A DNA stretch of 64,000 nt from Pediococcus inopinatus (GTDB lineage Bacteria; Bacillota; Bacilli; Lactobacillales; Lactobacillaceae), in assembly GCF_002982135.1 (NCBI RefSeq), contig NZ_CP019981.1, forward strand, positions 248,001 through 312,000. Reading direction: 5' to 3'. The notes beneath the pieces are model-generated. The model ran no database searches, was not told where the DNA came from, and saw only the letters and a program-made list of their open reading frames with translations. Numbering within the stretch: position 1 is the stretch's first letter; each line of letters opens with the position of its first letter. The position numbers were made by a program, and so were the translations under genes. This document shows, in pieces, positions 12,294 through 54,490 of the stretch.

Positions 12294-12605
12294 GGCAAAT
12301 CGCTAGAGAGATAAAAATAGACATGATGGAGGTGGGATCGCATCCCGCTGTGAGTCGTGTCTATTTTTATCTCTCTGATTTGCCGAGCTGTCCTAAGTTT
12401 TAGCAGAAAATTGCCGAGCAGGCGACGGATGCAGGATCGCATCCCGCTGCGATTTTTTGCGGCTGGTTTGTGCCACAAAAATCGACAACGACCGAAGAAC
12501 AGGAGGTTTTCTGTATGAAAACCACCAGCAAGGCGAAGCAGTGTGAGTCGTGTCTATTTTTATCTCTCTGATTTGCCGAGCTGTCCTAAAGCTTAGCAGA
12601 AAATT
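12294..12605 (+). repeat. Extragenic structured repeat element A
   Basis: Left arm 12294-12323 pairs with right arm 12358-12384 and again with a second right arm at 12551-12577 (27 paired bases, only GCT unpaired). Between the arms lie a hairpin GGGAT-CGC-ATCCC (12334-12346; copy at 12434-12444), a stem CGATTTTT / AAAAATCG (12450-12457 with 12477-12484), and a hairpin GGTTTTC-tgtat-GAAAACC (12505-12523). After each right arm comes a tail GAGCTGTCCTA...TAGCAGAAAATT (12385-12412, 12578-12605). A 64-bp direct repeat (12349-12412, 12542-12605) shows an internal partial duplication. The core and tail recur at 54288-54490. Nothing suggests coding. It lies between divergent genes. Confidence 0.85.
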
Positions 12606-12672
12606 CTGGCAATTTATTTAAAATTCGTAGTTTAACCAGAACTAATTACTATACTTTTCAAAAGAATACGGT

Positions 12673-12761
12673 TACAATATGTGTATATAGATGATGGCGA
12701 TACAAATACCGCCATTAATATTTAAGCACCGGGCTAGTTTCGATTAGCGCGGTGTTTTTTT
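12673..12761 (+). ncRNA. Possible small RNA or leader attenuator
   Basis: A possible -10 TACAAT (12673-12678, no good -35) is followed by a hairpin ATGGCG / CGCCAT (12694-12715) and a terminator-like hairpin AAGCACCG / CGGTG with seven T's (12724-12761). It could be a small RNA of about 80 bases or an attenuator upstream of the gene at 12853. Both readings rest on two hairpins only. Confidence 0.35.
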
Positions 12762-12852
12762 GTTCAATTGAAATATAAATGTAAGTTGTAACTTTTTATT
12801 GAGATGTTAGACTATGTAAGTAGGCTTTAACCAATATTAGGACGGTGCAAAA

Positions 12853-13311
12853 ATGAAAATTAAACCAAGTGATTTACTAGAAAGTATTCGAGACGAAAAA
12901 ATTGAACGAGAGACATTTAAGATTACAAGCACGAAACTTAAAAAGGATCCAAAAATGGCCTTAACACCAGTTTTTGGATATTTACAAGAAAACCTAAAGA
13001 ATCCAACTGCTGTGGAAGCAACTGTCACAATTAAAAAGGACGTTGTGTGCAAGTTTCAAACAAATATTATTAATCTACCGTACAATTATCCAAACAAGAT
13101 TGAGCAACTAACAGACGCCGACACAGAATATGAGCTTCAACTCTATGCAATTTTTGAAGCAGAAGATATTAATGCTTCACACCTCAGAATTGATTTGATG
13201 GGCACGGTAGATAATTTTCTAGCTGGGGATGCGGATGTGTATAAAAATATTACGGATTGGCTAGCATTGCAATTCGAAAAACTAGATTCAGATAAAACAA
13301 AACAGGAGTAA
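12853..13311 (+). CDS. Conserved hypothetical cytosolic protein
   Basis: A 152-residue soluble protein with no signal peptide, membrane segment or motif I recognise. It is lysine-rich at the N-terminus (KLKKDPKMALTPVFGYLQENLKN) and acidic later (EAEDINASHLRIDLMG). GGACGGTGC precedes the ATG. The stop is two or eight bases before the start of the L,D-transpeptidase gene, so the two are almost certainly co-transcribed. A cell-envelope role is only a guess from that neighbour. Confidence 0.7.
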   Translation: MKIKPSDLLESIRDEKIERETFKITSTKLKKDPKMALTPVFGYLQENLKNPTAVEATVTIKKDVVCKFQTNIINLPYNYPNKIEQLTDADTEYELQLYAIFEAEDINASHLRIDLMGTVDNFLAGDADVYKNITDWLALQFEKLDSDKTKQE

Positions 13312-13319
13312 AGGTGCCT

Positions 13320-13964
13320 ATGAATCGTTTACTTAAAATGTTAACAGTAGCCGGGATTTTGTTTCTGGCTGTGTTCTTGATTAGCTTACGGTTTCATCCG
13401 GCAGCTACAAAAACAAAGCAACAAAATTTGAATCAGGTTTCGGTCTCTAATTTACCAAAAGAAAAGAAATCAAGTTCAAAGTCTAAAGCTAAGAAAAAGG
13501 CAGCCCGCCCCGCGTACATGCGGGCAGTTAATTGGAAAAAATCTTCAGAAACTAAAGCTTATCCGGATTTAAAAAAATATAGTGATGTGTGGATAAAAGT
13601 GTCAATTGCTAAACAACGTGTTTACATTTTTAACAATAAAACTCGTTTATACACCATGTATGCCTCTACAGGGTCAAAGAGTTCGCCAACACCAACCGGA
13701 ACTTATCATATTCAGGCTGAACGGGGAACGTTCTTTTATAACGCGCAATCTAAAGAAGGCGCGAAATACTACGTTTCTTGGAAAGATCATGGCGTGTATT
13801 TATTCCATTCCGTCCCAACTAATGAACAAGGGCAGTTTCTGGTGAAAGAGGCTGAAAAGCTTGGAAAAGAAGCTAATTCGCATGGGTGTATAAGATTGGC
13901 AGTACCAGATGCAAAGTGGTTGTACACTAATATTCAAGAAGGAACGAAAGTTGTCATTCACTAG
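13320..13964 (+). CDS. L,D-transpeptidase (YkuD domain), membrane-anchored
   Basis: A protein of about 214 residues. It has an N-terminal signal-anchor (LLKMLTVAGILFLAVFLISL), a Lys/Ser-rich linker, then a YkuD domain with the catalytic signature SHGCIRL near residue 187 (Cys nucleophile, His and Ser-His conserved) and the upstream conserved histidine in YLFHSV. It acts outside the membrane, cross-linking or modifying peptidoglycan, or anchoring proteins to it. Two starts are possible: ATG 13320 after AAAGGTG, or GTG 13314 after AGGAG. The former is listed. The next gene, 11 bp downstream, is interrupted by insertion sequences. Confidence 0.9.
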   Translation: MNRLLKMLTVAGILFLAVFLISLRFHPAATKTKQQNLNQVSVSNLPKEKKSSSKSKAKKKAARPAYMRAVNWKKSSETKAYPDLKKYSDVWIKVSIAKQRVYIFNNKTRLYTMYASTGSKSSPTPTGTYHIQAERGTFFYNAQSKEGAKYYVSWKDHGVYLFHSVPTNEQGQFLVKEAEKLGKEANSHGCIRLAVPDAKWLYTNIQEGTKVVIH

Positions 13965-13974
13965 GGGTTAAGTT

Positions 13975-14021
13975 ATGAAAAATAAAATTCGCGAATTTTT
14001 AAATAAAAAAAGAAAATGGTT
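13975..14021 (+). pseudogene. 5' fragment of a small membrane-protein gene split by insertion sequences
   Basis: ATG at 13975 opens MKNKIREFLNKKRKWLK and the frame is cut by the left end of an IS3-family element. The rest of the gene resumes after the element at 17079. Together they would encode about 78 residues: a basic N-terminus followed by two hydrophobic stretches. It follows the L,D-transpeptidase gene by 11 bp and was probably the third gene of that operon. Confidence 0.75.
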
Positions 14022-14054
14022 GAAGTGAACCCCCAAGATTGGACAGATAAAATC

Positions 14055-15607
14055 GGAAGTTTGTCAAATGGTGTTGAAGGATAGTTTCTATCCTTTGGAG
14101 ATCTCCTCGTGTGGGAGATCTTTTTTGTTGTTTTATTAGTTGCAGCGTTTAATCTGGTGTGTTGTCTGAATATCGTACTTGAAGGCATAACAAATAAGCC
14201 TACCATCGTGACGTTATTGTGGTAGATAATCTAGGCAATCAGCTGGTAGACGCGTGTGAACATATTGGCCTGATTGGAGAAGCCATAACAAGCACGTTTG
14301 AGCTCCTTGATCTTACGGTTGATGCCCTCTATCGGTCCGTTAGAGTAGGACGATTTGGCGGCGTTAATTACTCCATTAAGATTCTTTCGTAGGGTATGCA
14401 TGGCCGTATCTAGGGGCGTGCCGTTAGGCTGATAGTTAGTGATGATATTCTTGAGTTCATCAGCGTGACGCCCCATCAAAGCATCGTGGAGATCGATGTA
14501 GGTTTCATAAGCTGTTTTGAAGGCCGGAAACGTATCGGTTCCAATATCAATAGCGTTCTGTTCGGTCGAGTACTCATTCAGGCCGAAGAGGTAGCGGCTC
14601 TTTTGTGCGTCAGGGGTGGCCTTGTGGAATAGGCGCCATAGTGATTTCAGTACTTTATATTCCCGCGAATGCTTGTCGAGTTGCTTTAAACATTGAGTGC
14701 GAATGGTATCCATCGTCCGGCCCATTAATTGAATAATGTGGAACCGATCAATAATGAGTTCGGCGTTAGGGAATAGTTCGTGCACGAATGCCTGATAGGA
14801 GGCGTTCATGTCCATGATGACGCGTTGAACCGCGGCCCGTTCTGCGGTGCTGTACTGACTAAGAAAGAACTGTTTGATGGTTCTATTAAGGCGGTCGCTA
14901 AGTACTTTAACTGATTTGTGAGTGTCGGCGTCAATGCAAATAAACGACATGGAGCCGTGCGTGGAACGGAATTCATCAAAGCATAGATTAATCGGTAACC
15001 GGCGGCTCGCGTGTGGATGAATATTAGCCGTCAAAATACGCTGAACTGAGTTTGTCGAAATACCGGTGAGACTGGCGATAGTCTTAGCCGGGAGTGATTT
15101 ACTGGCTAGCTTCAGCACATGAGTCGCTAGTCCGTGACCGATGGCGTGGTTGGTTGATACCACTGGAGTGGTGGCCGTACAAGTGCTATGGCAGTTACTA
15201 CAACGCCAGCGTTGCTTGTTTAGCTCTAGAATTACGGGCCGGTCCATGGGTCCTGCAATGTGGACATGAGTGAGCTTGTGTCCGTTAGGGTGCAACGTAT
15301 TGTATCCACAGCTGGGACAGCGCCTGAGTGTGTAGGTAAGCTCTGCCTGGATGACCAAATACTTTTTGCGACCCGAGCCCCGACCATGAAATTCATCACG
15401 AGTACCGAACACCTGAATGTTTGTGTCTGTAATTCCCAGTAATTTAAGTGTATTATCTAGTTGAGACATCTATTCCTACCCCGCTTATCTTGAGTTTCGT
15501 CGCTTAAAGCATAGCACTAGGGAGGCTTAGATGCCTTTTTTTGTTATCAAAAAGGGCCTAGTACTTTTGGAATGGAAATACTTTCCAACACCAAAAATTT
15601 TAGACCC
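14055..15607 (-). mobile_element. ISL3-family insertion sequence (copy b), nested in the IS3 element
   Basis: Both ends have GG...GGTGTTG at the same 15-base offset (14055-14076, and the complement of 15586-15607). The direct repeat ATAAAATC at 14047-14054 and 15608-15615 is a perfect 8-bp target duplication lying wholly inside the IS3 leader, so this insertion is younger than the IS3 element. It carries one transposase on the minus strand. Confidence 0.95.
14231..15469 (-). CDS. ISL3-family transposase
   Basis: A 412-residue transposase of a third ISL3 subtype. It has N-terminal CPSC and CSNC zinc pairs, the [17 protein letters not shown], then [20 protein letters not shown] and [12 protein letters not shown] as the acidic catalytic blocks. 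The frame is intact. Its GC content appears higher than in the flanking genes, in line with recent arrival. Confidence 0.95.
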
Positions 15608-15634
15608 ATAAAATCTAATCTTGGGGGTTCTTTT

Positions 15635-16171
15635 ATGGTTAAATTTAATTTTGATTTCAAAGTGAAAGTAGTAACTGAATATTTAGGTGGTCTGCCCGTT
15701 AATTCATTAGCACACAAATACAGGATTGGTAGTAGTGCCACAGTTTTAAATTGGATTCAAAGATATGAGAAATTTGGCCTTAACGGTCTTAAACGCAAAG
15801 CAATGGATTTAGAATATGCTAGCCAGTTCAAAGTCGATGTATTAAACTGGAGAAAACAAAATCAGGCCTCGCTTCCAGTAACTGCCTTACATTTTAATTT
15901 ATCCTCGCCGAGTACCATTTGGCAATGGGAAAGTCGGTTTAAGGCATTAGGAATTGTGGGTCTAGAGCGAAAGCGAGGCAACGCCAAGAACATGGTAAAA
16001 CACAAGAATAAAAGTCGCAAACCCATTGTCCAAAAGGACAATTCCACAGCCAAAGAGGATTTAAAACAGCTTCAAAAAGAAAATGAAATGTTAAAGATTG
16101 AGAACACCTACCTAAAAAAATTAGAGGCCTTAACTCGGAAAAAATCAGTACAAAAGAAATCTCAGAAATAG
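15635..16171 (+). CDS. IS3-family transposase OrfA
   Basis: A 178-residue helix-turn-helix protein (IS150 type). It contains two related HTH repeats ([21 protein letters not shown] and [19 protein letters not shown]) and a C-terminal leucine-zipper segment ([21 protein letters not shown]). The A-run in CGG-AAA-AAA-T near 16138-16145 is a plausible -1 frameshift site that would fuse it to OrfB. Start ATG 15635 follows the left-end hairpin. Confidence 0.9.
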
Positions 16172-17049
16172 CCATCGAGTTAAGGCAACTATTCCAAACT
16201 TCTATCAAACTGATTCTTAAAGTAATCCAAATTCCACGCAGTACCTATTACTACACTCAGAGTCATGAGAGACGTAAATTTGATGATGACCAGATTATTC
16301 AAGCAATAGACGAGATTCGCCAAAAAGATCCAAAATACACCAAAAAATACGGCTATCGAAGACTTACAAATGCATTACATGATTTAGGATTTAAAGTTAA
16401 TCATAAACGCGTTTTGCGAATTATGCAGGAACACGGGTGGTTGTGTCATGCCTTTAATCGACAAACTAAAAAATATAATTCATATAAAGGTTTAGTGGGT
16501 AAAATCGCCGCTAATCGCTTAAAGCGACGCTTCAAAACCGATAGACCTTATCAAAAGCTCGTCGCAGACGTTAGTGAATTCAGATATGGAAGCATGGGAA
16601 TGAACGAACGAGTTTATCTCGAACCAGTTCTTGATTTGTTTTCTGGAGAAATTCTAGCATTCAATATTAGTGAACATCCAACAGTTAAATTCGCAATTAA
16701 ACCACTTAAGGAGGCTTTAGAAAAACTACCAAAACTAAATTACCGGACAACAGTCCATACTGACCAAGGCTTTCAGTATCAACATCGACACTGGCAGCAG
16801 GTTTTAAAGAAACATCACGTTTATCAAAGCATGTCACGTAAAGCAACTTGTCTTGATAATGCGGTGATGGAGTCTTTCTTTCACATTATGAAGGCTGAAA
16901 TGATGGATGAACATTTTGAAGATAAAGCTAGCTTAGTCCAAGCAATGACCGAATGGATAGGTTTTTATAATAATCGTCGAATTAAAACAAAATTGAACGG
17001 CAAGTCCCCGGTAAAATACCGAGAACTCGCCGTTCAAAAAGCAGCATAA
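16139..17049 (+). CDS. IS3-family transposase OrfB (catalytic part, made by -1 frameshift)
   Basis: An rve-type integrase core. The frame is open from within the end of OrfA (about 16139; exact junction not known) through IRQKDPKYTKKYGYRRL, YQKLVADVSEF (first D), TVHTDQGFQYQ (second D) and ATCLDNAVMESFFHIMKAE (E), ending NGKSPVKYREL. Its first ATG is at 16423, far inside the domain, so expression as an OrfAB fusion by programmed frameshifting is expected. All catalytic residues are present. Confidence 0.85.
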
Positions 17050-17078
17050 ATATTTGTCCAATTTTATGGGTTCACTTC

Positions 17079-17264
17079 AGGTATCAAGATGCTGGAATCA
17101 GCATTTTGAGCCTTTTTCTCCTTTTGGTTTTATATCGTCTCATTGGTTATGTCTTCACAAGAATTGTTTTCTTGAGTTGGCCAAAGATTATTGGAGTCAC
17201 CATATTTTACATGGTGCTTTTAGTAGCCTGGCATAGTTGGGAAATCTATCAAGCAAAACGGTAA
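17079..17264 (+). pseudogene. 3' fragment of the split small membrane-protein gene
   Basis: After the IS3 right end the reading frame resumes as RYQDAGISILSLFLLLVLYR and stops with TAA at 17262-17264. It contains two hydrophobic segments (SILSLFLLLVLYRLIGYVF and IIGVTIFYMVLLVAW). The family is not recognised. It ends eight bases before the convergent DedA gene. Confidence 0.7.
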
Positions 17265-17271
17265 GATCAGC

Positions 17272-17898: not shown

Positions 17899-17969
17899 GA
17901 TGGAACTCCATTCCCGTAAAAATCTACCCTAATCATATAATGAAACGTCTTAAAAGACTAGGGGTGTGT

Positions 17970-17997
17970 TTGCAAAAGGATAAAACTGTGTTATTAT
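17970..17997 (+). promoter_or_regulatory. Promoter of the structured RNA candidate
   Basis: -35 TTGCAA (17970-17975), a 16-bp spacer, and -10 TATTAT (17992-17997). Transcription should start near 18005, and no coding frame follows on this strand. Confidence 0.65.
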
Positions 17998-18004
17998 AAA
18001 TTTA

Positions 18005-18202
18005 TGCGATGAGTCGAGTAAAAACCAGATAACTTCGGTTGTTTCACTTTCGAGTGACTAGTGGTTTGCTTGGAACGGGATACTTTTCTTCCACCGGATT
18101 GTGTGGCGTATCTGATTAAACATGTGTGAACCGTGCGAGATCTATTTGAGAAATCAAGTACCGTTCAAAAAAAGGTTGGGACATTAGTCTCAGCCTTTTT
18201 TT
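18005..18202 (+). ncRNA. Unidentified structured non-coding RNA
   Basis: A predicted transcript of about 200 bases. A closing stem AAACCA / TGGTTT (18022-18027 with 18062-18067) encloses two hairpins, ATAAC-TTCG-GTTGT (18029-18042) and TCACT-TTCG-AGTGA (18044-18057). Next come a two-part hairpin GATAC...CCAC / GTGG.GTATC (18079-18112), a hairpin TTGA-GAAA-TCAA (18046-like layout, at 18146-18157), and a terminator (18167-18202). UUCG and GAAA tetraloops are typical of stable RNA. It does not match tmRNA, SRP RNA, RNase P RNA or T-box motifs that I know. A 6S-like role is possible by size only; no long closing helix or central bubble was found. Confidence 0.6.
18167..18202. terminator. Bidirectional terminator of the RNA candidate and the methyltransferase gene
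   Basis: A 16-bp stem AAAAAAAGGTTGGGAC / GTCTCAGCCTTTTTTT (two G-T pairs) around ATTA. It serves the plus-strand RNA and the minus-strand gene ending at 18211. Confidence 0.9.
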
Positions 18203-30380: not shown

Positions 30381-31815
30381 GGGTCTACACTTTCTGGTAT
30401 TGGTGAATAACTGATACCAGTTTTTATTTTGAAAATTAAAAGGACATCTGTCCTCTTTGTGCTACGATTTAATCACCAAACAAAATCGAAAAGAGGAAAA
30501 ACAGATGTCCCTAACTAATTCTATCTTAAGCTTGTTTGAAATGACAGACCCAAATATAACCGTAACTGGTGTTACCAAGAAACGTTGCCCGAATGGACAA
30601 CGAATTCATGTCGTTCACGCCAACCTTTCTTATCAGCTTGTGAAATGTCCCCATTGTGGCCATAAAAGTCTAATTAAAAACGGTACCCACGTTAGTCATC
30701 TAAGGTTGGGAACCTTATCAGGCGGACGTTATGAAATGCAGCTAAGAAGACAAAGATATCAATGCCAACATTGTTTAAAAACCTGTGGAGCTAAAACTAA
30801 CCTCGTTAGACGTAATGAAACTTTTACCCACAATGTTAAACATCAGGTCATTGTGCTAGCTCGTGACATGCTGACCAGTAAAGAAATCGCTAAAATTTGT
30901 GGCATTTCACCAAGTAGTGTGCAACGTATTTTAAATGCAAATATTCACTTGGCTTACCGTGTTAAGCAACTTCCACCAAATCTTTGTTTCGATGAATTTC
31001 GTTCCTGTAATCATCTAATGTCCTTTAACTGTTGCGATGCCGTTAGTCATCGCCGCATTGTGACCCTCGAAGATCGTCTCAGTAAGGATATCATTGATTA
31101 CTTTGAAGCTCGTTATTCAGTTCAAGAACGTGCGAAAGTTCAAACAATTACTATTGATATGAACGCCGAATATGCCAGCTTTATTCATCGTTTATTCCCG
31201 AACGCTGTCACGATTATTGACCGTTTCCACATTATTCAGCTTGCTGGTCGTGCACTAGACAATGTACGTACACGCATTATCCGTACTTTTCAAGATAAGC
31301 ATTCACGCATTTACCGCATCCTTAAATCTCAATGGCGTTTATTTCATTTGGCAGAAGAGAAAATCAATGACACTAAGCTTATCTATTTACGAGGCATTAA
31401 CGAGTATATGACCCAACAGAACGCCATCGACCTTGCCTTAGATGAATTTCCAGAATTCAAAACTGTGTATCAAACTTATCAAGGCATTCTAACTGCTATC
31501 CACCAAAAGAATGCCACGGGATTTAAAAATTTGATTACCAACTACCAAGTAGCTGGTAATCAAATGGACGTCACCATTTCAACCTTCGTTAAGAACGGCT
31601 CAGCAGTGCTCAACAGTTGTCGTTATCCGTATTCTAACGGTCCTATTGAAGGACTTAATCGCAAAATCAAGGTATTAAAGCGTAGCTGTTTTGGTTTTCG
31701 AAATATTCATAACTTCTTCATTCGTATCAGTTTAATTCATGAGTAAACAAAAAGCACATTCACCGAAGTGAACATGCCTTCAAAAATCTCTACCAATACA
31801 GTTTGACAGAGACCC
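30381..31815 (+). mobile_element. ISL3-family insertion sequence (copy c), complete, 1435 bp
   Basis: Ends begin GGGTCTACACTTT...GGTATTGGTGA and, from the right, GGGTCTCTGTCAAAC...GTATTGGTAGA. The direct repeat AAAAAATT at 30373-30380 and 31816-31823 is a perfect 8-bp target duplication. Near the left end CTGGTAT / ATACCAG followed by T's (about 30393-30430) acts as a terminator against incoming transcription. It is nearly identical to copy d at 44704. Confidence 0.96.
30505..31746 (+). CDS. ISL3-family transposase
   Basis: A 413-residue transposase: CPHC and CQHC zinc pairs, HTH EIAKICGISPSSVQRIL, then [19 protein letters not shown] and NGPIEGLNRKIKVLKR. ATG 30505 is used because AGAGGA precedes it; an upstream ATG at 30457 has no such site. 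It differs from the copy-d protein at only a few positions (for example EDRLSK versus KDRLSK). Intact. Confidence 0.95.
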   Translation: MSLTNSILSLFEMTDPNITVTGVTKKRCPNGQRIHVVHANLSYQLVKCPHCGHKSLIKNGTHVSHLRLGTLSGGRYEMQLRRQRYQCQHCLKTCGAKTNLVRRNETFTHNVKHQVIVLARDMLTSKEIAKICGISPSSVQRILNANIHLAYRVKQLPPNLCFDEFRSCNHLMSFNCCDAVSHRRIVTLEDRLSKDIIDYFEARYSVQERAKVQTITIDMNAEYASFIHRLFPNAVTIIDRFHIIQLAGRALDNVRTRIIRTFQDKHSRIYRILKSQWRLFHLAEEKINDTKLIYLRGINEYMTQQNAIDLALDEFPEFKTVYQTYQGILTAIHQKNATGFKNLITNYQVAGNQMDVTISTFVKNGSAVLNSCRYPYSNGPIEGLNRKIKVLKRSCFGFRNIHNFFIRISLIHE

Positions 31816-36552: not shown

Positions 36553-36651
36553 AATTCCGTAACTCCCAACTTACTTCGCTCACTATTCAAGGACAGTTCA
36601 GTAAGTCAGTTACGAATTTGTAAGCATGCTAACCGCGAGATGCAATCTCGC
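36553..36651 (-). repeat. Extragenic palindrome C, possible relative of elements A and B
   Basis: Inverted arms AATTC.GTAACT..ACTTAC (36553-36574) and GTAAGT.AGTTACGAATT (36601-36618) flank a loop. Beside them a 17-base hairpin (36635-36651) reads, on the minus strand, GCGAGATTGCATCTCGC. That matches the GCGGGATCGCATCCCGC hairpin of element B with a compensatory A-T for G-C exchange. The loop on the minus strand contains CTGTCCT..TAG as in the A/B tail. The order of parts differs, so kinship is tentative. Confidence 0.45.
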
Positions 36652-36742
36652 TAACGACATTCTTAAACCTCAAAACAAAACGTCTGAATTCACTCACTAT
36701 GCTATAATTTACCCATAAGATTTGAAAACGGAGGAAAGCAAT

Positions 36743-44613: not shown

Positions 44614-44827
44614 AATTCACTCCAAATTATGGGGTTCAGTTCAACCTGAGAAAAAATCTCAGGTTCCTTTTTTGTGATCTTTAGATTTTATTGTCGAAAA
44701 TGTGGGTCTACACTTTCTGGTATTGGTGAATAACTGATACCAGTTTTTATTTTGAAAATTAAAAGGACATCTGTCCTCTTTGTGCTACGATTTAATCGCC
44801 AAACAAAATCGAAAAGAGGAAAAACAG

Positions 44828-46069
44828 ATGTCCCTAACTAATTCTATCTTAAGCTTGTTTGAAATGACAGACCCAAATATAACCGTAACTGGTGTTACCA
44901 AGAAACGTTGCCCGAATGGACAACGAATTCATGTCGTTCACGCCAACCTTTCTTATCAGCTTGTGAAATGTCCCCATTGTGGCCATAAAAGTCTAATTAA
45001 AAACGGTACCCACGTTAGTCATCTAAGGTTGGGAACCTTATCAGGCGGACGTTATGAAATGCAGCTAAGACGACAAAGATATCAATGCCAACATTGTTTA
45101 AAAACCTGTGGAGCTAAAACTAACCTCGTTAGACGTAATGAAACTTTTACCCACAATGTTAAACATCAGGTCATTGTGCTAGCTCGTGACATGCTGACCA
45201 GTAAAGAAATCGCTAAAATTTGTGGCATTTCACCAAGTAGTGTTCAACGTATTTTAAATGCAAATATTCACTTGGCTTACCGTGTTAAGCAACTTCCGCC
45301 AAATCTTTGTTTCGATGAATTTCGTTCCTGTAATCATCTAATGTCCTTTAACTGTTGCGATGCCGTTAGTCATCGCCGCATTGTGACCCTCAAAGATCGT
45401 CTCAGTAAGGATATCATTGATTACTTTGAAGCTCGTTATTCAGTTCAAGAACGTGCGAAAGTTCAAACAATTACTATTGATATGAACGCCGAATATGCTA
45501 GCTTTATTCATCGTTTATTCCCGAATGCTGTCACGATTATTGACCGTTTCCACATTATTCAGCTTGCTGGTCGTGCACTAGACAATGAACGTACATGTAT
45601 TATCCGTACTTTTCAAGATAAGCATTCACGCATTTACCGCATCCTTAAATCTCAATGGCGTTTATTTCATTTGGCAGAAGAGAAAATCAATGACACTAAG
45701 CTTATCTATTTACGAGGCATTAACGAGTATATGACCCAACAGAACGCCATCGACCTTGCCTTAGATGAATTTCCAGAATTCAAAACTGTGTATCAAACTT
45801 ATCAAGGCATTCTAACCGCTATTCACCAAAAGGATGCCACGGAATTTAAAAATTTGATTACCAACTACCAAGTAGCTGGTAATCAAATGGACGTCACCAT
45901 TTCAACCTTCGTTAAGAACGGCTCAGCAGTGCTCAACAGTTGTCGTTATCCGTATTCTAACGGTCCTATTGAAGGACTTAATCGTAAAATCAAGGTATTA
46001 AAGCGTAGCTGTTTTGGTTTTCGAAATATTCATAACTTCTTCATTCGTATCAGTTTAATTCATGAGTAA
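44828..46069 (+). CDS. ISL3-family transposase
   Basis: A 413-residue transposase nearly identical to the one at 30505. Substitutions include Glu to Lys in the KDRLSK segment, DNVRTR to DNERTC, and HQKNATGF to HQKDATEF. All zinc and catalytic blocks (FDEFRS, IIDRFHI, NGPIEGLNRKIK) are intact. The nested insertion falls after its stop codon, so the gene itself is not broken. Confidence 0.95.
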   Translation: MSLTNSILSLFEMTDPNITVTGVTKKRCPNGQRIHVVHANLSYQLVKCPHCGHKSLIKNGTHVSHLRLGTLSGGRYEMQLRRQRYQCQHCLKTCGAKTNLVRRNETFTHNVKHQVIVLARDMLTSKEIAKICGISPSSVQRILNANIHLAYRVKQLPPNLCFDEFRSCNHLMSFNCCDAVSHRRIVTLKDRLSKDIIDYFEARYSVQERAKVQTITIDMNAEYASFIHRLFPNAVTIIDRFHIIQLAGRALDNERTCIIRTFQDKHSRIYRILKSQWRLFHLAEEKINDTKLIYLRGINEYMTQQNAIDLALDEFPEFKTVYQTYQGILTAIHQKDATEFKNLITNYQVAGNQMDVTISTFVKNGSAVLNSCRYPYSNGPIEGLNRKIKVLKRSCFGFRNIHNFFIRISLIHE

Positions 46070-46112: not shown

Positions 46113-47562
46113 GGGTCTACACTTTCTGGTATTGGTGAATAACTAATACCGGTTTTTTGTCTGTTTTGAAAATCAGAAAAATAAAAAAGGACATCTGTCC
46201 TCTTTGTGCTACGATTTAATCGCCAAAACAAATCGAAAAGAGGAAATTCAGATGTCCCTAACTAATTCTATCTTATGCTTATTCGAAATAACAGACCCAA
46301 ACTTAATTGTCACTGGTATTTCTAAAGAACGGTGTTCCACAAACCAACGTATTCATGTCGTCCATGCAACTTTGTCTTATCAACTTTTAAAGTGCCCACA
46401 TTGTGGCCATAAAAGCTTAATTAAAAACGGAACTCACATGAGTCACCTGCGTTTAGGAACCTTATCCGGTGGTCGTTACGAAATGCATTTAAAACGTCAA
46501 AGATACCAATGTAAAGATTGTTCAAAAACCTGTGGTGCTAAAACTAAGTTGGTTAATCGTAACGAAACTTTCACACATAATATCAAACATCAAGTGATCG
46601 TTTTGGCACGCGATATGTTGACGAGTAAAGAAATTGCTAAACTTTGTGGAATTTCGCCAAGCAGTGTTCAACGAATCCTAAATGCCAATATTCACTTAGC
46701 CTATCGTGTTAAACATCTCCCAGAGAATCTTTGCTTTGATGAATTTCGTTCCTGTAATCACTGTATGTCCTTTAATTGTTGCGATGCCGTTAGTCATCGC
46801 CGAATTGTTACTTTAAAAGATCGGCTAAGTAAAGATATCATTGACTACTTTGAAGCTCGTTTTTCGGTTCAAGAACGTGCCCAAGTTCAATCAGTGACGA
46901 TTGACATGAATGCTGAATATGTCAGCTTCATTCATCGCTTATTTCCCAATGCGGCCACGATTATCGATCGTTTCCATATTATTCAACTGGCTGGGCGTGC
47001 CTTAGATAATGAACGCACGCAGACCATTCGTACTATCCAAGATAAGCATTCACGAATTTATCATATTTTAAAATCTCAATGGCGTTTATTTCATCTTGAT
47101 GAAATAAAAGTTAATGATTCTAAGGCTGTTTATTTACGCGGAATTAACGAGTATATGACGCAACAAAACGCCATTGATTTAGCTCTAGACGCTTTTCCCA
47201 GATTTAGATCTGTGTATCAAACCTATCAAGGTATCTTAAGTGCCATACACCAAAAGGATGCTAATGCGTTCCAATCCTTACTTACTAACTACCAACCCAC
47301 TAGTAATCAAATGGACATAACGATCAACACGTTTATCAAAAATGGTTCAGCCCTTCTAAACAGTTGTCGTTATCCATTTTCCAACGGTCCAATTGAAGGA
47401 CTTAATCGTAAAATCAAGGCATTAAAGCGTAACTGTTTTGGTTTTCGAAATATTGACAACTTCTTTATCCGGATTAGTTTAATTCATGAGTAAACAAAAA
47501 GCACATTCACCGAAGTGAATGTGCCGTTCAAAATCTCCACCAATACGATTTGACAGAGACCC
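46113..47562 (+). mobile_element. ISL3-family insertion sequence (copy e), nested in copy d
   Basis: Ends GGGTCTACACTTT (46113) and GACAGAGACCC (47562). The direct repeat AAAAATCT at 46105-46112 and 47563-47570 is a perfect 8-bp target duplication lying within copy d, 27 bases from its right tip. The element is 1450 bp. It is a diverged relative of copies c and d, so it did not arise from them recently. Its left-end guard hairpin (CTGGTAT / ATACCGG plus T's) is conserved. Confidence 0.96.
46252..47493 (+). CDS. ISL3-family transposase, diverged subtype
   Basis: A 413-residue transposase clearly homologous along its length to the copy c and d proteins but with many substitutions, for example CKDCSKTCGAKTKLVNRNE and FQSLLTNYQPTSNQMDITINTF. 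It has zinc pairs CPHC and [23 protein letters not shown] and NGPIEGLNRKIKALKR. Intact. AGAGGA precedes the ATG. Confidence 0.95.
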   Translation: MSLTNSILCLFEITDPNLIVTGISKERCSTNQRIHVVHATLSYQLLKCPHCGHKSLIKNGTHMSHLRLGTLSGGRYEMHLKRQRYQCKDCSKTCGAKTKLVNRNETFTHNIKHQVIVLARDMLTSKEIAKLCGISPSSVQRILNANIHLAYRVKHLPENLCFDEFRSCNHCMSFNCCDAVSHRRIVTLKDRLSKDIIDYFEARFSVQERAQVQSVTIDMNAEYVSFIHRLFPNAATIIDRFHIIQLAGRALDNERTQTIRTIQDKHSRIYHILKSQWRLFHLDEIKVNDSKAVYLRGINEYMTQQNAIDLALDAFPRFRSVYQTYQGILSAIHQKDANAFQSLLTNYQPTSNQMDITINTFIKNGSALLNSCRYPFSNGPIEGLNRKIKALKRNCFGFRNIDNFFIRISLIHE

Positions 47563-47602
47563 AAAAATCTCTACCAATACAGTTTGACAGAGACCCGAAA
47601 AT

Positions 47603-47713
47603 GTGTTCGATAAGGCAGCTTCCTCCGCTTAGCTACGATTAACAAACGGTCCCAAGTGCGGACCATTCGTCAATCTAGGCTATGCTCAGAAGCTAACCGC
47701 CTTGTCTCACACT
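47603..47713. repeat. Long interrupted palindrome (D) downstream of pepI
   Basis: Outer arms GTGT..GA.AAGGC (47603-47616) and GCCTT.TC..ACAC (47699-47713), then AGCTTC / GAAGCT, enclose an inner hairpin GGTCC-CAAGTGC-GGACC. No T-run follows, so it is not a standard terminator. It lies between the right target duplication of ISL3 copy d and the end of pepI. Confidence 0.6.
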
Positions 47714-48622
47714 CTAAAATTTGCCACTTTCGACATCACGGAGATAATCTGCCAAATGTTTGAAGTAAACAGGGGCATTATCAATCATATGATGGTGACC
47801 ACCGTTTGGCGTTGTGACCAAACGTGAATTTGGAATTGCTTGTGCCATTCGTTGTGCGGACTTCAGTGGCATTGTTTCATGTTCACCGAAAGTTAACAAC
47901 GTTGGGACTTTAATCTTGTGGATTTGATCACGAATATCCCATTCTTTTAGTTTCCCAGTAACAACAAATTCATTGTCACCTTGGAAAGCGTTATAAACAG
48001 GGACAGCCATTGTGTCAACCAAATGAGAAATTGCTGGTGGCTGCTTACGATCGACGTAGCCTTCGTTTAAAACCTCAACAAGCTCTTGGTAACGTTCATT
48101 ATGCCAATCACCATTCTTTTCGCAATCGCGCATGAATTGGGCATCTTTAGGAGAAAGAGCTTCATCACGGATAGCGTCTTGGTGCTCTAAATATTCATCA
48201 ATGTTATCTACCATGCTGGAAATGATGGCACCCTTTAAATGGCTACCGTATTTTAAAGCGTAAAGCATGGTTAATGCACCGCCCCAAGATTGACCAATCA
48301 AGTAGAAGTGGTCAATCCCTAACTTTTGACGAACTTCTTCAACTTCATCCAAGAAGTAGTCGTAAGTTAGGTATTTAGCAGCAATTTTTGGATCTGAATA
48401 ATCAGGTTGGTCAGAATACCATGATCCTAATTGATCATAATAATGAACCTGCACGTTTAAGCCTTGTTTCTTGAGCTCATCATGGAAATTTTCCCAGTAT
48501 TCATGATTCCCACCAGGGCCACCATGCAATGCTAGTAAATGAATCTGACTATCTTCGCCATCTGTGTGTGACCACAAATGGTAGCCGTTGTTCAACGTTA
48601 AAATCTTTGTTCCTTGTTTCAC
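47714..48622 (-). CDS. pepI: Proline iminopeptidase
   Basis: A 302-residue S33-family peptidase that removes N-terminal proline from peptides. It has the oxyanion motif LALHGGPGGNHEYW near residue 32, the nucleophile in YLIGQSWGGALTM near residue 110, an Asp/Glu-containing TFGEHETMPL, and the final histidine in NGGHHHMID. It starts with GTG after AGGGTGATC. With PepX and OppA elsewhere in the window it fits growth on casein-type, proline-rich peptides. Confidence 0.93.
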   Translation of the reverse strand: MKQGTKILTLNNGYHLWSHTDGEDSQIHLLALHGGPGGNHEYWENFHDELKKQGLNVQVHYYDQLGSWYSDQPDYSDPKIAAKYLTYDYFLDEVEEVRQKLGIDHFYLIGQSWGGALTMLYALKYGSHLKGAIISSMVDNIDEYLEHQDAIRDEALSPKDAQFMRDCEKNGDWHNERYQELVEVLNEGYVDRKQPPAISHLVDTMAVPVYNAFQGDNEFVVTGKLKEWDIRDQIHKIKVPTLLTFGEHETMPLKSAQRMAQAIPNSRLVTTPNGGHHHMIDNAPVYFKHLADYLRDVESGKF

Positions 48623-49230: not shown

Positions 49231-49401
49231 GGTGCGGGCCTTCTTTCAAGAAATTTGAATATTAGGAAAGTATACCAAAGTGCAAGGAAATCATGCAAGG
49301 TGTTTGGAAGTGAATTTTTGTTAAAATCACTAAAAGACGTTTGCTTGTTCTTATCTCAATCAATTGATAAGATTAAGAAAAAAGTAGAGGAAGTTTTCGC
49401 A

Positions 49402-50196
49402 ATCAAATTTAATTTTAAAAAACTTCAACAAAAAAGTATCGCAGCGGGATTTAATATTGACTTTCACATCTTTGATCAGATTGATTCGACTAACTCAGAG
49501 GCCAAACGAGTGGGTCGGCAACTTGAACGCATAACCCAGCCGCAAATTTTTATTGCGAATCATCAAACAGCAGGATATGGACGATTAAAACGTGATTTTT
49601 ATTCACCTGAAGACAGTGGCTTATACATTAGTTTTTTAATTCCAGTGGTGGGGAAGACATTTAATCCGGGATTATTGACAACAATGACTGCGGTGGCCAG
49701 TGCAGAAGCGATTCAAAAACATTTTTCGGTTCAGTTGCAGATCAAATGGGTAAATGATTTGATTTTAAATAAGCGAAAAGTGGGCGGAATTCTGGCTGAG
49801 GCAATCACTGATCCGATAACCAATCAATTAGCAGGAGTGGTGATCGGGATTGGTGTAAATTTATATACCCAATCTTTTCCAGCAGAGATTCAACAAATTG
49901 CGACCTCTTTAAGTGATCAAGCGGAGGCTAAGGACCAAACGGACTTTTTGGCTGATTTTGTGAATAACTTTTTAAACCACCTAAAAACTTATCAAAACGC
50001 AGATTTTATGTCGAAGTATCGGCAGCTATCATCTGTAATTGGCCAGCAAGTTCAAGTTCAGTTTCAAAATAAGACCGTTGTTGGCGTCGTTGAAACGATT
50101 GATGACCAAGGAAGACTAATTTTACAAACCACACAACAAAGGCTAGTCATCTCAAGTGGCGAAATTATTCACGTAAGTCCAACTAAATCCAATTAA
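49402..50196 (+). CDS. birA: Biotin-[acetyl-CoA-carboxylase] ligase, single-domain type
   Basis: An enzyme joining biotin to the carboxylase carrier protein. It has FDQIDSTNSEAKRVG, the biotinyl-AMP loop NHQTAGYGRLKRDFYSP (GRGxxxR-like), LQIKWVNDLILNKRKVGGILAEA and VVIGIGVNLY. The N-terminal DNA-binding domain of bifunctional BirA is missing, which is common in lactobacilli. The start is doubtful. A good ribosome site GAGGAAG (49387-49393) is followed by no ATG, GTG or TTG at normal distance; ATC 49402 is in frame and eight bases away (264 residues). The frame is open back to 49216, but those residues look random. Confidence 0.82.
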   Translation: MKFNFKKLQQKSIAAGFNIDFHIFDQIDSTNSEAKRVGRQLERITQPQIFIANHQTAGYGRLKRDFYSPEDSGLYISFLIPVVGKTFNPGLLTTMTAVASAEAIQKHFSVQLQIKWVNDLILNKRKVGGILAEAITDPITNQLAGVVIGIGVNLYTQSFPAEIQQIATSLSDQAEAKDQTDFLADFVNNFLNHLKTYQNADFMSKYRQLSSVIGQQVQVQFQNKTVVGVVETIDDQGRLILQTTQQRLVISSGEIIHVSPTKSN

Positions 50197-50233
50197 AAAA
50201 GCGTTCGGAAATTAATTTTCCGGACGCCTTTTT
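50195..50233. terminator. Bidirectional terminator
   Basis: Stem AAAAAAGCGTTCGGAAA / TTTCCGGACGC.TTTTT between the convergent birA and pepX genes. Confidence 0.9.
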
Positions 50234-50235
50234 AT

Positions 50236-52674
50236 TTATTTGATTGGTAAAGTTATTTTGCATTGATTAATTTGTAATGAATATTGTAATTCTTGGTTAC
50301 CACGAACAGTTGTTGCAAAATCAGTTGCATAAACGACTAAGCCAAGCTGGTGACCAGCTAACAAATGGTAAAAAGTGGGTTGTAAATCGACGGTCAAATC
50401 ATAAAAATCATTTGCCTTCAGTTCATCTACTTGATAAGCATTATGACGATTTTGCAAATTAATATGGCCCTTGGTAATCATCTTCCAAGGGGTGGCCTCT
50501 TTTTGCAAGGTGAACTCGCGGAGATTATCACGACGCCAATCATAAGCACCACTCAATGATTTTCCTGCTAGAATCGTTGGGCTTACGGTGAGGCGTTTGG
50601 CATCGCCGTAATCAACCAACTGAAAACTCAGCATTCCAAATGGTTCGTTGACGGCTACACGAATTTTGAGTTGTGCACACCCATCAATATAAGTGTCATG
50701 ATCGTAGCGACTGGTTTTGAAGATCAAGCGATTATCACGCAATTGATTTTCACCTTTTGTGTCATGGTTTGTGGTTAGTAAATCACGTTCCCAGACATTT
50801 AAATGTTTTTTATAGAAGTCGAATACTTCAGGATCAAGATGATCGCTAAACGAAGCTGCGGCAGTCCGAACTGGAACGGTTTCTGGAACCAACTCTTTGG
50901 CTTCAAAATTGAAAACCTGTTTTTGATCAGTTGGTGCTTGCCAATCTTCATAGCTAGTCCATGTTTCAGGCTGCACGTTATCTTGAATTAGCACATCAGG
51001 TAATAAATCTTCTGCATGATTATCTAAACCAAAGAGTTCATGACTAAACCAAAGATTCATCATGTCAGTGAAATCGAGGGAACGAAATCCATTGACGTAA
51101 ATGTGTTGACCTTGATGCAGAATCAACTTTTTAGTGATTGGGGCATCTCTTAAGGCGTTCCATAAATTACCAACGTTACGTGGCTTAACATTCCAGTCAT
51201 TTAAACCATGCACCATAATCATATCAGCTTTAATGTTTTTAACATTGTTGACATAATTACGTTCGTCCCAGTAGTGACTGTAATTCCCAGTTTGACGATC
51301 CTGATCTTTGGTCATGGTTTGTAAAACTTGATCAAAGAAGTCCTTGATCTTTAAATAGTCACCAGGCTTTTGCATCCGGCTAAATACTTCCGTAGCGAGG
51401 ACATCCATGTCTTCACCCTGGAAAGTATCGGGCGCGGCAACTAAACCGCCATCACGATAATAGTCGTACCAACTTGAAATTGCTGCTTCAGACACGACTG
51501 TCTTTAGTCCATCCACGCCGGTTGTGGCAGCTGCGACAGCTAAAGTACCTAAATAAGAGCGGCCGGTCATCGCAATCTTACCGTTAGACCAAGAAGCTTT
51601 GATTTCAATATTATCAGTTTTGTTAGTGAAAGCCGTCCGATTTCCAGCGAGCCATTCAATAACGGCAATGGTTGAAACTGTTTCGGAAACGGCCCCTGTG
51701 TCCCGAATTCCGTCAGAATCTTTAGTTCCAATTCCAGCTGCATAAACAACGGCAAATCCGCGGGTTAGGAAATAATCATTTAAAGTATAAGGCGATTCCA
51801 TCGCAAAGGTTTCGTCGGCTTCTTGTTGTTCACCAGCAATTTTGCGTTTAGCAGGTAACTTCTTTGGTGTCTCTTGATAATGGACGTCTGCGTAAGTGAG
51901 TTGATTGGGTTCTTTAGGTTCTAAAGGTACGTCAACATTATGCATAGCTGCACTGCCAGCTTCGTCGTTAATACCTTGATTGTAAGGACTAGCCGTATAT
52001 AAAACTGGTGCACGATAGTCATCTGCGGTTTGTTTAGCCCGAAGGATTTCGACCTTCAATAGATCTCGTTTGCCATCCTCATCGGTGTCTAGCGGCGCCT
52101 CCACATAAACAACGTCACGAATTAATTGGTGAGGATCAAAAACAGCTTGGGCCTTGCCGTTGAAAAATAAAGGTTTAGTGGTTGTTGCATAGAAAGATAC
52201 AAAATAGCCGGCCTGTGCTAACTTGTCTAAGTAAGTCTGGCCCTTTTTCGTATGGGTACAAAGCAATAGATACCAGGCATGCAGTAAGTCAGACTTGGTT
52301 TTGATTGGCTCACCAACGATGGGGAGCTTAATTTGTTTCATGGCTTCAATGGGGTTATCAAGCTTAAAATCGATATCTACATCGAATTCAAGAAGCTGCA
52401 TAGCCACACGATAAAAAATGTCATTGGTAAGTGCCTGTTGGGAGTCTAAAAAGTCTCCCAAGGTCATTTCTGGGGTAGCTAAATAATTATTCAATTTTTG
52501 TTTGAAGACGGTTTGGCTTTTTGCTTCAAGGACTGTTTTGTGTAAAAGCTCTTGCCAAACTGCGATTGGATCATCTAATTGATCAATTGAGTCATCGATA
52601 AAGTGGGTCGCTCGTAACTCTTTAAGTTCGGTTGTTCTATCGACAGGTTCAATTGCAAATTGGTTATTTTTCAT
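50236..52674 (-). CDS. pepX: Xaa-Pro dipeptidyl-peptidase
   Basis: An 812-residue S15 serine peptidase releasing X-Pro dipeptides from casein-type peptides. It has the helical N-terminal domain, the catalytic serine in GRSYLGTLAVAAATTG near residue 371, the Asp in MIMVHGLNDWNVKPRN near 490, the His in HQGQHIYVN near 520, and the C-terminal jelly-roll domain. Length matches lactobacillus PepX. The ribosome site GGAGG forms one arm of a long hairpin upstream (52684-52739). Confidence 0.96.
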   Translation of the reverse strand: MKNNQFAIEPVDRTTELKELRATHFIDDSIDQLDDPIAVWQELLHKTVLEAKSQTVFKQKLNNYLATPEMTLGDFLDSQQALTNDIFYRVAMQLLEFDVDIDFKLDNPIEAMKQIKLPIVGEPIKTKSDLLHAWYLLLCTHTKKGQTYLDKLAQAGYFVSFYATTTKPLFFNGKAQAVFDPHQLIRDVVYVEAPLDTDEDGKRDLLKVEILRAKQTADDYRAPVLYTASPYNQGINDEAGSAAMHNVDVPLEPKEPNQLTYADVHYQETPKKLPAKRKIAGEQQEADETFAMESPYTLNDYFLTRGFAVVYAAGIGTKDSDGIRDTGAVSETVSTIAVIEWLAGNRTAFTNKTDNIEIKASWSNGKIAMTGRSYLGTLAVAAATTGVDGLKTVVSEAAISSWYDYYRDGGLVAAPDTFQGEDMDVLATEVFSRMQKPGDYLKIKDFFDQVLQTMTKDQDRQTGNYSHYWDERNYVNNVKNIKADMIMVHGLNDWNVKPRNVGNLWNALRDAPITKKLILHQGQHIYVNGFRSLDFTDMMNLWFSHELFGLDNHAEDLLPDVLIQDNVQPETWTSYEDWQAPTDQKQVFNFEAKELVPETVPVRTAAASFSDHLDPEVFDFYKKHLNVWERDLLTTNHDTKGENQLRDNRLIFKTSRYDHDTYIDGCAQLKIRVAVNEPFGMLSFQLVDYGDAKRLTVSPTILAGKSLSGAYDWRRDNLREFTLQKEATPWKMITKGHINLQNRHNAYQVDELKANDFYDLTVDLQPTFYHLLAGHQLGLVVYATDFATTVRGNQELQYSLQINQCKITLPIK

Positions 52675-52683
52675 AATATAAAA

Positions 52684-52739
52684 ACCTCCGAAAAGTTGTA
52701 TGGCACCAATTATACGCCATTCTGCAACTATTCGGAGGT
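52684..52739 (-). promoter_or_regulatory. Hairpin covering the pepX ribosome site, with a -10 box in the loop
   Basis: Arms 52684-52698 and 52725-52739 pair over 15 bases with one mismatch; the pepX-proximal arm contains CGGAGGT, its Shine-Dalgarno. The loop on the minus strand holds TATAAT (52709-52714). Transcripts started upstream (from the permease gene) would fold and hide the site or terminate at the following TTTTT, while transcripts from the loop promoter would lack the left arm and be translated. Confidence 0.6.
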
Positions 52740-52770
52740 AATTTAACTAATTAATTTTTAATGATCTAAT

Positions 52771-54174
52771 TTACTTTTTTTCGTTATCTTTTTGTGCCAG
52801 TTGGCTGTGATGAATTCCGTAAGTAAAGTAAATTAGTAGACCAAATGCAAACCACAATAGAGACGCAATCCAGGTTTCCTTAGATAAAGTGGTCATTAAG
52901 AAGATACATAAGAATCCCGAAATGATTGGTAATACTGGATAAAATGGGACTTTAAATCCATGATTAGGGATATCTTTTCGTTTCCGAAGGGGAATAATTC
53001 CAAAGGATACAACGGCAAACGCAATTAGTGTACCAATGTTAACAAGGTTAGTTAATTGGTCCAAAGGAACTAGACCACCCAAAATGGCAATGACAATTGT
53101 GACAACCGTCATGGCATGGAGTGGCGAATGATTAGCACTAACTTTGCCCAATGTTTTTGGCAATAAGCCATCACGACCAGTGGAATAAACTAATCGGGAG
53201 CTACTAAAGATCATTGTCACCATCATGGTGGTCATCCCGGCTAATGCGCCTAAAGATAAAAGACCAGCTAGCCAGTTTTGATTAACAGCTTGTAAAGCAA
53301 AGGCCACGGGATCTGCGACGTTTAATTTGGTGAATGGAATCATCCCAGTCAATACGATTGAAACGCCAATGTACAGGACGGTTGCGATAATCAAAGTCCC
53401 GATAATTCCAAATGGCATGTTGTGATCTGGATCTTTTACTTCGGCTGCCGAAGAAGAAACGGCATCGAACCCAAGATAAGCAAAGAAAACGGTAGAAGCG
53501 CCTTGGAACATCCCTTTAACACCAAAGGGCATAAAGGGATGCCAATTACTTGGCTTGACGTAAAATGCGCCAATTAGTAAAAATAGCACGATAATCACAA
53601 GTTTGACGATGACCATGATGTTGTTAATTCGAAGGGATGATTTCAATCCTTTCGATAGAAATAACGCAATGATACAAACGATTATGATGGCCACAATATT
53701 TATGTAAGTCCCATGGGCAGGATCAAATGGGCCAGACAAGGCTTGAGGAATATGAAGGCCAAATCCTGATATAAATGAACTAAAGTAGGCCGACCAACCG
53801 GTGGAAACCGCCGCGACGGCCAGGACATACTCTAAAATGAGGGCCCAACCTAAAATCCAACCGACGATTTCACCAAACACGACGTTCCCATAAGAATAGG
53901 CGCTACCGGCAACGGGCAACGCGGAAGAAAATTCAGCGTAACACATGGCAGCGACAGAACAAACAATGGCAGCAACCACGAAGGAAAGAATAATGGCAGG
54001 ACCAGCTTTGGTTGCGGCGACGGTTCCAGGTAAAATAAAGATTCCGGTACCAATGACGGCACCAATTCCAAGGGCAATTAAATCCCAACCGTTCATGGTT
54101 TTTTCGAAACGGTTGTCGCGCTCAATGTAACGATCACGACTTTCTTTGCGGAAAATTCGTCCGCGTAATGACAT
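52771..54174 (-). CDS. APC-family amino acid permease
   Basis: A 467-residue transporter with about 12 membrane segments. It has LIALGIGAVIGTGIFILPG near residue 30 (substrate/sodium-site loop of the APC fold), FFAYLGFDAVSSSAAEVKDP near residue 230, and TMMVTMIFSSSRLVYSTGRDGLLP near 320, features of the cationic amino acid transporter group (YfnA-like). The substrate is not fixed. ATG 54174 follows GGGAGTG; an upstream ATG at 54183 overlaps the site. No gene shares its transcript except possibly pepX by read-through. Confidence 0.9.
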   Translation of the reverse strand: MSLRGRIFRKESRDRYIERDNRFEKTMNGWDLIALGIGAVIGTGIFILPGTVAATKAGPAIILSFVVAAIVCSVAAMCYAEFSSALPVAGSAYSYGNVVFGEIVGWILGWALILEYVLAVAAVSTGWSAYFSSFISGFGLHIPQALSGPFDPAHGTYINIVAIIIVCIIALFLSKGLKSSLRINNIMVIVKLVIIVLFLLIGAFYVKPSNWHPFMPFGVKGMFQGASTVFFAYLGFDAVSSSAAEVKDPDHNMPFGIIGTLIIATVLYIGVSIVLTGMIPFTKLNVADPVAFALQAVNQNWLAGLLSLGALAGMTTMMVTMIFSSSRLVYSTGRDGLLPKTLGKVSANHSPLHAMTVVTIVIAILGGLVPLDQLTNLVNIGTLIAFAVVSFGIIPLRKRKDIPNHGFKVPFYPVLPIISGFLCIFLMTTLSKETWIASLLWFAFGLLIYFTYGIHHSQLAQKDNEKK

Positions 54175-54287
54175 AAACAACACTCCCTAAATGTAGTGAC
54201 TCAAACTGTAACCAGTTTATTAGACTATATCCAGAAAAATATTAAAAGTCAATGAGAAAAAATAAAAGTGAACGTAACAAGTCGTTA

Positions 54288-54490
54288 AGCAATGAATATA
54301 TAAGTGAGGTGGAAGCGGGATCGCATCCCGCTGCGAGTTATTGCGGCCGAACTTTGCCACAAGAATCGACAACGACCGAAGCATAAAAGGTTTTCGTTCC
54401 GAAAACCAACAACTGAAGCGTAGCAGTGGGAACCTTACTTATATATTCATTGCTGACTTGTGGAGTTGTCCTACTGCCTAGCAGAAACAT
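54288..54490 (+). repeat. Extragenic structured repeat element B
   Basis: Left arm AGCAATGAATATATAAGT (54288-54305) pairs perfectly with 54437-54454, extending to 22 bases with one mismatch. Between the arms are a hairpin GCGGGAT-CGC-ATCCCGC (54315-54331), a stem like the CGATTTTT stem of element A, and a hairpin GGTTTTC-gttcc-GAAAACC (54389-54407). The conserved text AATCGACAACGACCGAAG lies between them. After the right arm comes the tail GAGTTGTCCTA...TAGCAGAAA (54463-54487). Core and tail match element A at 12294, but the arms are unrelated in sequence. It lies between divergent genes. Confidence 0.85.

Follow-up and report, generated by a model that had tools for sequence, protein, structure and literature searches.

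A sense-strand hairpin repeat, often placed at stop codons, and a second repeat nested in some of its copies in Pediococcus inopinatus

The window analysed here, a stretch of 64,000 nucleotides (nt) of Pediococcus inopinatus (assembly GCF_002982135.1, contig NZ_CP019981.1, positions 248,001 to 312,000, forward strand), carries two extragenic elements, A and B. An earlier note on this DNA had described them as one family with a conserved folded core enclosed by long inverted arms private to each copy. Both are present where the note had placed them, each between divergent open reading frames (ORFs) as it had said, and the text common to them is confirmed: GGGATCGCATCCC, the exact 18-mer AATCGACAACGACCGAAG, GGTTTTC/GAAAACC and the tail GAGYTGTCCTA..TAGCAGAAA. 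Their pairing is beyond chance, none of 200 shuffles reaching the fold energy of the first unit of A or that of B. Element A adjoins a gene for Usp (Pfam) with 96% identity to Usp of P. damnosus, P. cellicola and P. ethanolidurans. The two elements are made up as follows, where R1 is the model of the hairpin unit and R2 that of the core module.

12286..12395, + strand: complete hairpin unit, first half of element A (R1 104.2 bits, E 9.9e-28; fold -61.4 kcal/mol, z -11.05)
12396..12588, + strand: half-unit of element A, consisting of the tail CTTAGCAGAAAA.., an apical hairpin, the core module, a second copy of the 3' arm and GAGCTGTCCTA (sequence reading)
12453..12542, + strand: core module, an independent repeat, in element A (R2 87.7 bits, E 5.3e-16)
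54268..54473, + strand: hairpin unit of element B, whose apical part contains the core module (sequence reading; fold -80.1 kcal/mol, z -7.86)
54337..54427, + strand: core module, an independent repeat, in element B (R2 88.9 bits, E 3e-16)

This anatomy departs from the earlier description in several respects. Element A is not one element: it is a complete hairpin unit followed by a half-unit, and the 3' arm of the half-unit is a repeat of the one in the first unit. The units of A and B start earlier than had been thought, at 12286 and 54268, and a conserved GTGAR lies outside their arms. The core common to both is a module separate from the arm-bearing element. The conserved tail stands; the proposed covariation of its CTAA/TTAG stem was read from two sequences. 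A GCTCAGC-like tail lies behind 37 of 104 arrays of units, and CTAARGCTCAGC, seen by eye in many of these tails, breaks the stem. Half-units, in the window and at two other places in its genome (G000:C1:136034 and 319514), repeat only the preceding unit's 3' arm, and in them two 3' arms could compete for a single 5' arm.

Comparison of A and B by blast with the window's own genome (2.31 Mb) returned many related loci, and reading these separated two modules, a hairpin unit of about 110 nt (GTGAG...CTGTCCTA) and a core module of about 90-100 nt (GTTCTTGCGG..CCACAAGAATCGACAACG..GATTTTCG..CGAAAATC..GAGTAGT). In the stretches that we read around matches in five species there are 105 arrays, each of 1-8 units, which fall into 52 groups by upstream gene; arrays that have no listed match nearby are missed. 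The core module occurs in these stretches 35 times. R2 matches 16 of 378 genomes, in four genera. In one of these genera (g33) eight genomes have 10-11 scored core matches each, and R1 matches two of the eight, once each. Because the core is present in high copy in a genus where R1 is nearly unmatched, it is a repeat of its own; several of the core copies printed from that genus lie, by eye, inside hairpins of a sister type (units with other ends, described below) on the opposite strand. Core and arms are thus two different repeat families, and their nesting gives the look of one element with private arms. For annotation it matters that what looks like one element can consist of two repeat families, one nested in the other. 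The core module is also repeated head to tail, the period being near 98 or 198 nt (G000:C1:2042894-2043120, G006:C136:5015-5703 and G175:C1:79606-80089).

The fold of the hairpin unit was examined in two alignments. Alignment A1 holds 32 full units of the window's genome (103-111 nt, 111 columns), picked by hand with decayed units excluded and with one row starting late where the search pattern had cut it; RNAalifold finds 36 consensus pairs in it, 32 of them with both sides changed. In a unit read from its 5' end, GTGAR with a foot of 3 bp comes first, then a stem of 7 bp, a short 5'-side bulge and a stem of 23 bp that contains AUAAG/CUUAU; an asymmetric internal loop and a GGGAT..ATCCC hairpin follow, and the 3' end is CTGTCCTA. 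Of 200 matches in five species 195 were used, four antisense shadows and one partial match being dropped, and alignment A2 is made up of the 150 best. Standard pairs fill 97.2% of its cells, against 69.6% in shuffles; both sides have changed in 34 of the 36 pairs, and none of 500 shuffles reaches any of five measures. Relatedness of the units inflates the shuffle test, and a control in which the structure was slid along the alignment, giving 39-48% pairing, upholds its result. The idea of an extragenic family with conserved pairing and diverged arms is borne out by this covariation; the idea that the arms have no sequence in common is not, for a mid-stem UAA/UUA (columns 34-36 with 81-83) is the same pair in at least 142 of the 150 units.

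The pairs also tell the strands apart. The 150 units contain 271 G-U cells and 21 A-C cells, or 127 and 16 when the three G-U-richest pairs (columns 6, 39 and 40) are omitted, although the model's own preference for G-U could raise the first number slightly. If the DNA arms corrected each other, or if the form were a double-stranded cruciform, both kinds would be equally frequent; the inequality therefore indicates that the folded form is a single sense strand, whether RNA or single-stranded DNA of the same sense. The fold of the sense strand is what is conserved. Graded and strand-specific as it is, this covariation makes the family a good natural test case for compensatory evolution.

To follow how the arms diverge, we sorted disjoint pairs of units by the identity of their stems and counted the stem changes in each class. 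The numbers of single and of Watson-Crick double changes are 34:2 at identities of at least 0.95, 42:14 at 0.90-0.95, 53:32 at 0.85-0.90, 70:114 at 0.80-0.85 and 95:194 at 0.75-0.80, and 178 of the 294 single changes still leave a standard pair. This order, singles first and doubles later with divergence, is that of stepwise compensation. Arms are also shared between loci: similarity of at least 10 of 12 nt is seen in 24 of the 89 pairs from one array, 12 of the 186 orthologous ones, 54 of the 2260 non-orthologous pairs within a species and 68 of 8344 others. In 46 non-orthologous pairs from the same species the whole unit is 88-97% identical, and at least one of these pairs (P. cellicola L227/L228) has common flanks as well and resembles a larger duplication. 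Similar arms at unrelated loci point to the copying of whole units.

The earlier note had proposed instead that arms are taken from the target or renewed at each insertion, and the usp site of element A is the kind of place that suggests it: the window's species and four others carry units with different arms there (four more Pediococcus species, by eye, have none). Capture is contradicted by the conserved GTGAR and CTGTCC, which in A1 lie outside the arms, and by the sharing of arms between loci; renewal is contradicted by similar arms at non-orthologous loci of one species and by nearest units that differ by singles before doubles. We consider either form of the proposal scarcely credible.

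The family is numerous and recurs in other genomes, as the family claim of the earlier note required. At E <= 0.1 the window's genome has at least 64 sense-strand R1 matches, partial copies included, with 150 of 937 candidates scored; this is 91 matches less 27 antisense shadows and includes one sister-type unit on contig C3 and two apical pieces. Listed copies on its 2.14-Mb chromosome contig (G000:C1) lie mostly at 47-320 kb and 1.6-2.06 Mb. R1 matches 6 of 12 Pediococcus genomes (E <= 0.01), and related units occur in 55 of 378 Lactobacillaceae genomes and 13 of 40 genera (E <= 1e-4, 10 candidates scored per genome); as the searches with R1 and R2 score limited candidates per genome, copy numbers are lower bounds. 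Units mostly start with GTGAG, GTGAA, GTGCG or GTGGG and end in CTGTCCTA. By eye, nearly all of 28 distant or P. claussenii loci have the frame GTGAGCGGAGCAAAGCGGTTA..ATAAG..CTTAT..GCTTTG.GGAGCTGTCCTA or sister ends such as GAGTG..CACGTTT and GAGAGC..GCTCATTT.

Many units begin at the end of a gene. In 76 of the 105 arrays the nearest upstream ORF is on the same strand and has its stop codon between 9 nt before the unit and 21 nt inside it; a laxer ORF rule gives 86 and counts spurious ORFs (for example one antisense to usp at element A), so the lower figure is used. The arrays are not independent, and counted by upstream gene the same-strand stop-codon start is found in at least one member of 32 of the 52 groups, sites without an upstream ORF being likely split too finely. 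The commonest junction (20 arrays) has the last base of the stop codon as the first base of the unit, TA followed by G. Among 30 loci that are distant or from P. claussenii, 16 have an ORF (60 codons or longer) whose end falls up to 7 nt ahead of the unit or up to 22 nt inside it. ORFs flank the arrays in the direction of the unit on both sides in 41 cases, in the opposite direction on both sides in 9, convergently in 40 and divergently in 10, with 5 undetermined; the divergent placement reported for A and B is thus true of them and not a trait of the family.

Strong hairpins immediately after stop codons, with 40 of the 105 arrays between convergent ORFs, could suggest transcription terminators. 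The 3' side of the unit, however, reads CTGTCCTAA and passes into A-rich sequence, the printed flanks show no T run, and separate terminator-like hairpins with T runs lie, by eye, about 20-40 nt behind several arrays, which makes this explanation very improbable. In the convergent cases the other end of the unit is at least 40 nt from its gene in 35 of 40. An A precedes 105 of 105 first units and 89 of 90 internal ones. Spacers between tandem units measure 3-7 nt in 79 of 80 cases and are A-rich, as are the flanks, which were examined for target duplication and are diverged. Stop codons in all three frames at the 5' end of the unit were considered as a selected trait and rejected: they occur in 20 of 105 first and 13 of 90 internal units (44 of 2000 when shuffled) and are not particular to gene ends.

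At three sites a unit is missing from one species and present in others; the junction is at the stop codon, and the end of the protein is the same. These are the clear cases; an automatic pattern for missing units had flagged many false absences and weak paralogues.

Site 1: occupied in P. damnosus and P. parvulus, empty in P. ethanolidurans
Site 2: occupied in P. ethanolidurans and P. parvulus, empty in P. cellicola; a decayed unit in the window's species
Site 3: occupied in the window's species and P. damnosus, empty in P. cellicola

At the same stop codon of site 3, P. ethanolidurans has a sister-type unit and P. parvulus a core. Placement directly at stop codons, kept at one gene in up to five species, would also be expected of a native, non-mobile RNA acting in cis in the 3' untranslated region (UTR) and copied by recombination only. 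Units are found behind unrelated genes and between divergent genes (10 of 105 arrays), arrays mix arm types, near-identical copies stand at non-orthologous loci, and the same genes lack units in other species, all of which renders such an RNA quite improbable.

Established by observation, then, are the anatomy, the covariation, the strand asymmetry, the frequent position at stop codons, the sharing of arms between loci and the nesting. On this basis we read A and B as copies of a dispersed repeat, like a repetitive extragenic palindrome (REP) or a miniature inverted-repeat transposable element (MITE), that would act in sense RNA at gene ends, and we give this reading a probability of roughly 0.52. 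The sense-strand fold of the hairpin of about 110 nt would be maintained by selection, and whole units would reach new places as copies and multiply in tandem, in many cases at stop codons and in the sense of the gene. After copying, the arms would drift by point mutation with compensation, leaving as a recognisable remainder mainly the fold, the mid-stem AUAAG/CUUAU and the outer GTGAG/CTGTCC, and the second, independent repeat would have become nested in some units. Stop-codon position together with a sense-strand fold suggests action at the 3' end of the mRNA. We infer that units are transcribed and affect the host: in 3' untranslated mRNA, by analogy with E. coli REPs near stop codons, the hairpin may slow 3' exonucleases, affect terminating ribosomes, or both. 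PMC12306157, citing earlier work, states that translation is lowered by E. coli REPs that lie fewer than 16 nt from a stop codon and that these can make ribosomes stall. Copies that are not at gene ends, A and B among them, would be passengers that the host tolerates.

A number of observations weigh against this reading. Twenty-nine of the 105 arrays, A and B included, lie away from any same-strand stop codon, and the excess of sense over antisense units between co-directed genes, 41:9 by arrays, falls to 14:9 by groups. The three empty sites are compatible with loss of units as well as with gain; some units are decayed; and searches for Y1 (PF01797) and RVT_1 found no mobilising gene. The G-U bias is explained equally by single-stranded DNA of the same sense and by RNA. 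A third to a half of the double changes are non-transitions, which cannot be passed via G-U, and in orthologous first units with 0.78-0.93 stem identity doubles (28) outnumber singles (12), the single steps being unseen there.

A different account of the stop codons is that they are the target itself. A mobile element could insert at the translation termination sites of active genes, its folded sense RNA or DNA strand being recognised by structure, and then ride in the 3' UTR in the manner of a SINE, with arms nearly free in sequence and a nested structured repeat carried along. We hold this to be unlikely; the group-level orientation count (14:9) lowers slightly both its odds and those of a repeat acting at gene ends.

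How units are copied bears on a further alternative. No full-length match to the REP-associated tyrosine transposase (RAYT; Y1/HUH, PF01797) was found in 12 Pediococcus genomes; the window's genome has one partial match (positions 70-121) in an ORF of 85 codons on its 89-kb contig C2, and the 11 others, five of them R1-bearing, have none. The reverse transcriptase RVT_1 is present in 2 of the 12 genomes and absent from the window's. Spread driven by RAYT and spread driven by reverse transcriptase were accordingly both rejected. A search of a plasmid collection with one unit and of a phage collection with element A gave no match. A trans-acting transposase, an enzyme since lost, or recombination are possible routes. 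A sister-type unit (L223) on the 46-kb contig C3 of the window's genome adjoins copper genes (a P-type ATPase and CopY) and lies in a stretch of 461 bases that recurs in 89 plasmid records from several genera, including Listeria.

A purely selfish mobile hairpin would have its sense fold as the substrate of a trans-acting transposase for single-stranded DNA, in the manner of REP/RAYT or IS200/IS605, or of RNA-based copying, and stop codons as its choice of target, without a function for the host. The strand bias of the fold, the spread of unit copies from locus to locus, tandem arrays with as many as 8 units, the absence from 6 of 12 Pediococcus genomes and the conserved A before the unit are all in keeping with it. 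Against it stand the enzyme searches (Y1 matched only in part, and in a single one of the 12 genomes; reverse transcriptase found in two of them and not in the window's) and the orthologous sites, which keep their pairing despite diverged arms and so call for upkeep after insertion or for repeated replacement. We regard it as possible, though somewhat unlikely, and prefer a repeat whose sense-strand fold is maintained for its action at gene ends.

Among known systems, MITEs, ERIC, BOX/RUP and Correia elements are short, non-coding and present in many copies, with inverted repeats or a modular build. Unlike for these, no parent transposon was found for the present units (no systematic comparison with insertion-sequence ends was made), and target duplication is unproven. 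The EFAR repeats of Enterococcus faecalis, palindromic and of modular build, go into stem-loop targets and retain parts of the stems of these targets. They are the closest precedent for captured arms, and they are set apart from the present family by its conserved sequence outside the arms and the inheritance of its arms.

Like REPs and BIMEs of E. coli and other bacteria, of which the GTAG class is linked to RAYT, the units are dispersed, high-copy extragenic palindromes, single or arrayed, and as in E. coli REPs the hairpin is often close to a stop codon. Many REPs lie no more than 15 nt from a stop codon (260 of 496 in an earlier study cited by PMC12306157) and can act on translation or mRNA stability. 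At about 110 nt the units are longer than REPs (20-40 bp according to PMC3733652), their arms are free in sequence, and neither a GTAG nor a CGTC tag stands at their ends. With no full-length RAYT gene in the window's genome or 11 other Pediococcus genomes, two defining tests of REP/RAYT fail despite the REP-like behaviour. PMC3733652 also reports CGTC-type palindromic repeats without a dedicated transposase, so that such repeats are not unheard of; these and the Rickettsia palindromic elements, also described there, resemble the present family in this respect and differ in being shorter and having a conserved tag, while the Pediococcus units start at stop codons. In agreement with the earlier note, we found no description of the family in the open-licence PMC literature. 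Numbering in the dozens at stop codons, and found in bacteria that are easily handled, the units would offer a clean system for how hairpins directly behind stop codons affect expression, and would suit the question of how small repeats without a known transposase spread.

The window contains two further units.

36589..36697, - strand: diverged hairpin unit, additional to A and B (R1 48.6 bits, E 1.6e-11)
47598..47714, - strand: sister-type unit GAGTGTGAGACAAGGCGGTTAG..GAACACATTTTC (R1 24.6 bits, E 1.5e-4)

The second has its start on the G of the TAG codon that ends an alpha/beta hydrolase gene (Pfam; ORF 47714-48622). It also adjoins an ISL3-family transposase gene (ORF 46204-47493, + strand), which is equalled in length by two further ORFs of 429 codons, at 44780-46069 and 30457-31746. 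For the elements themselves, Rfam 15 gave nothing above gathering score in a scan of the window and, at E up to 5 in 12200-12700, only a microRNA model far below its cut-off. The one match above gathering score in the window, at 18005-18135 (+ strand, 76 bits), is to Ref68 (Enterococcus sRNA 68, Lacto-3 RNA).

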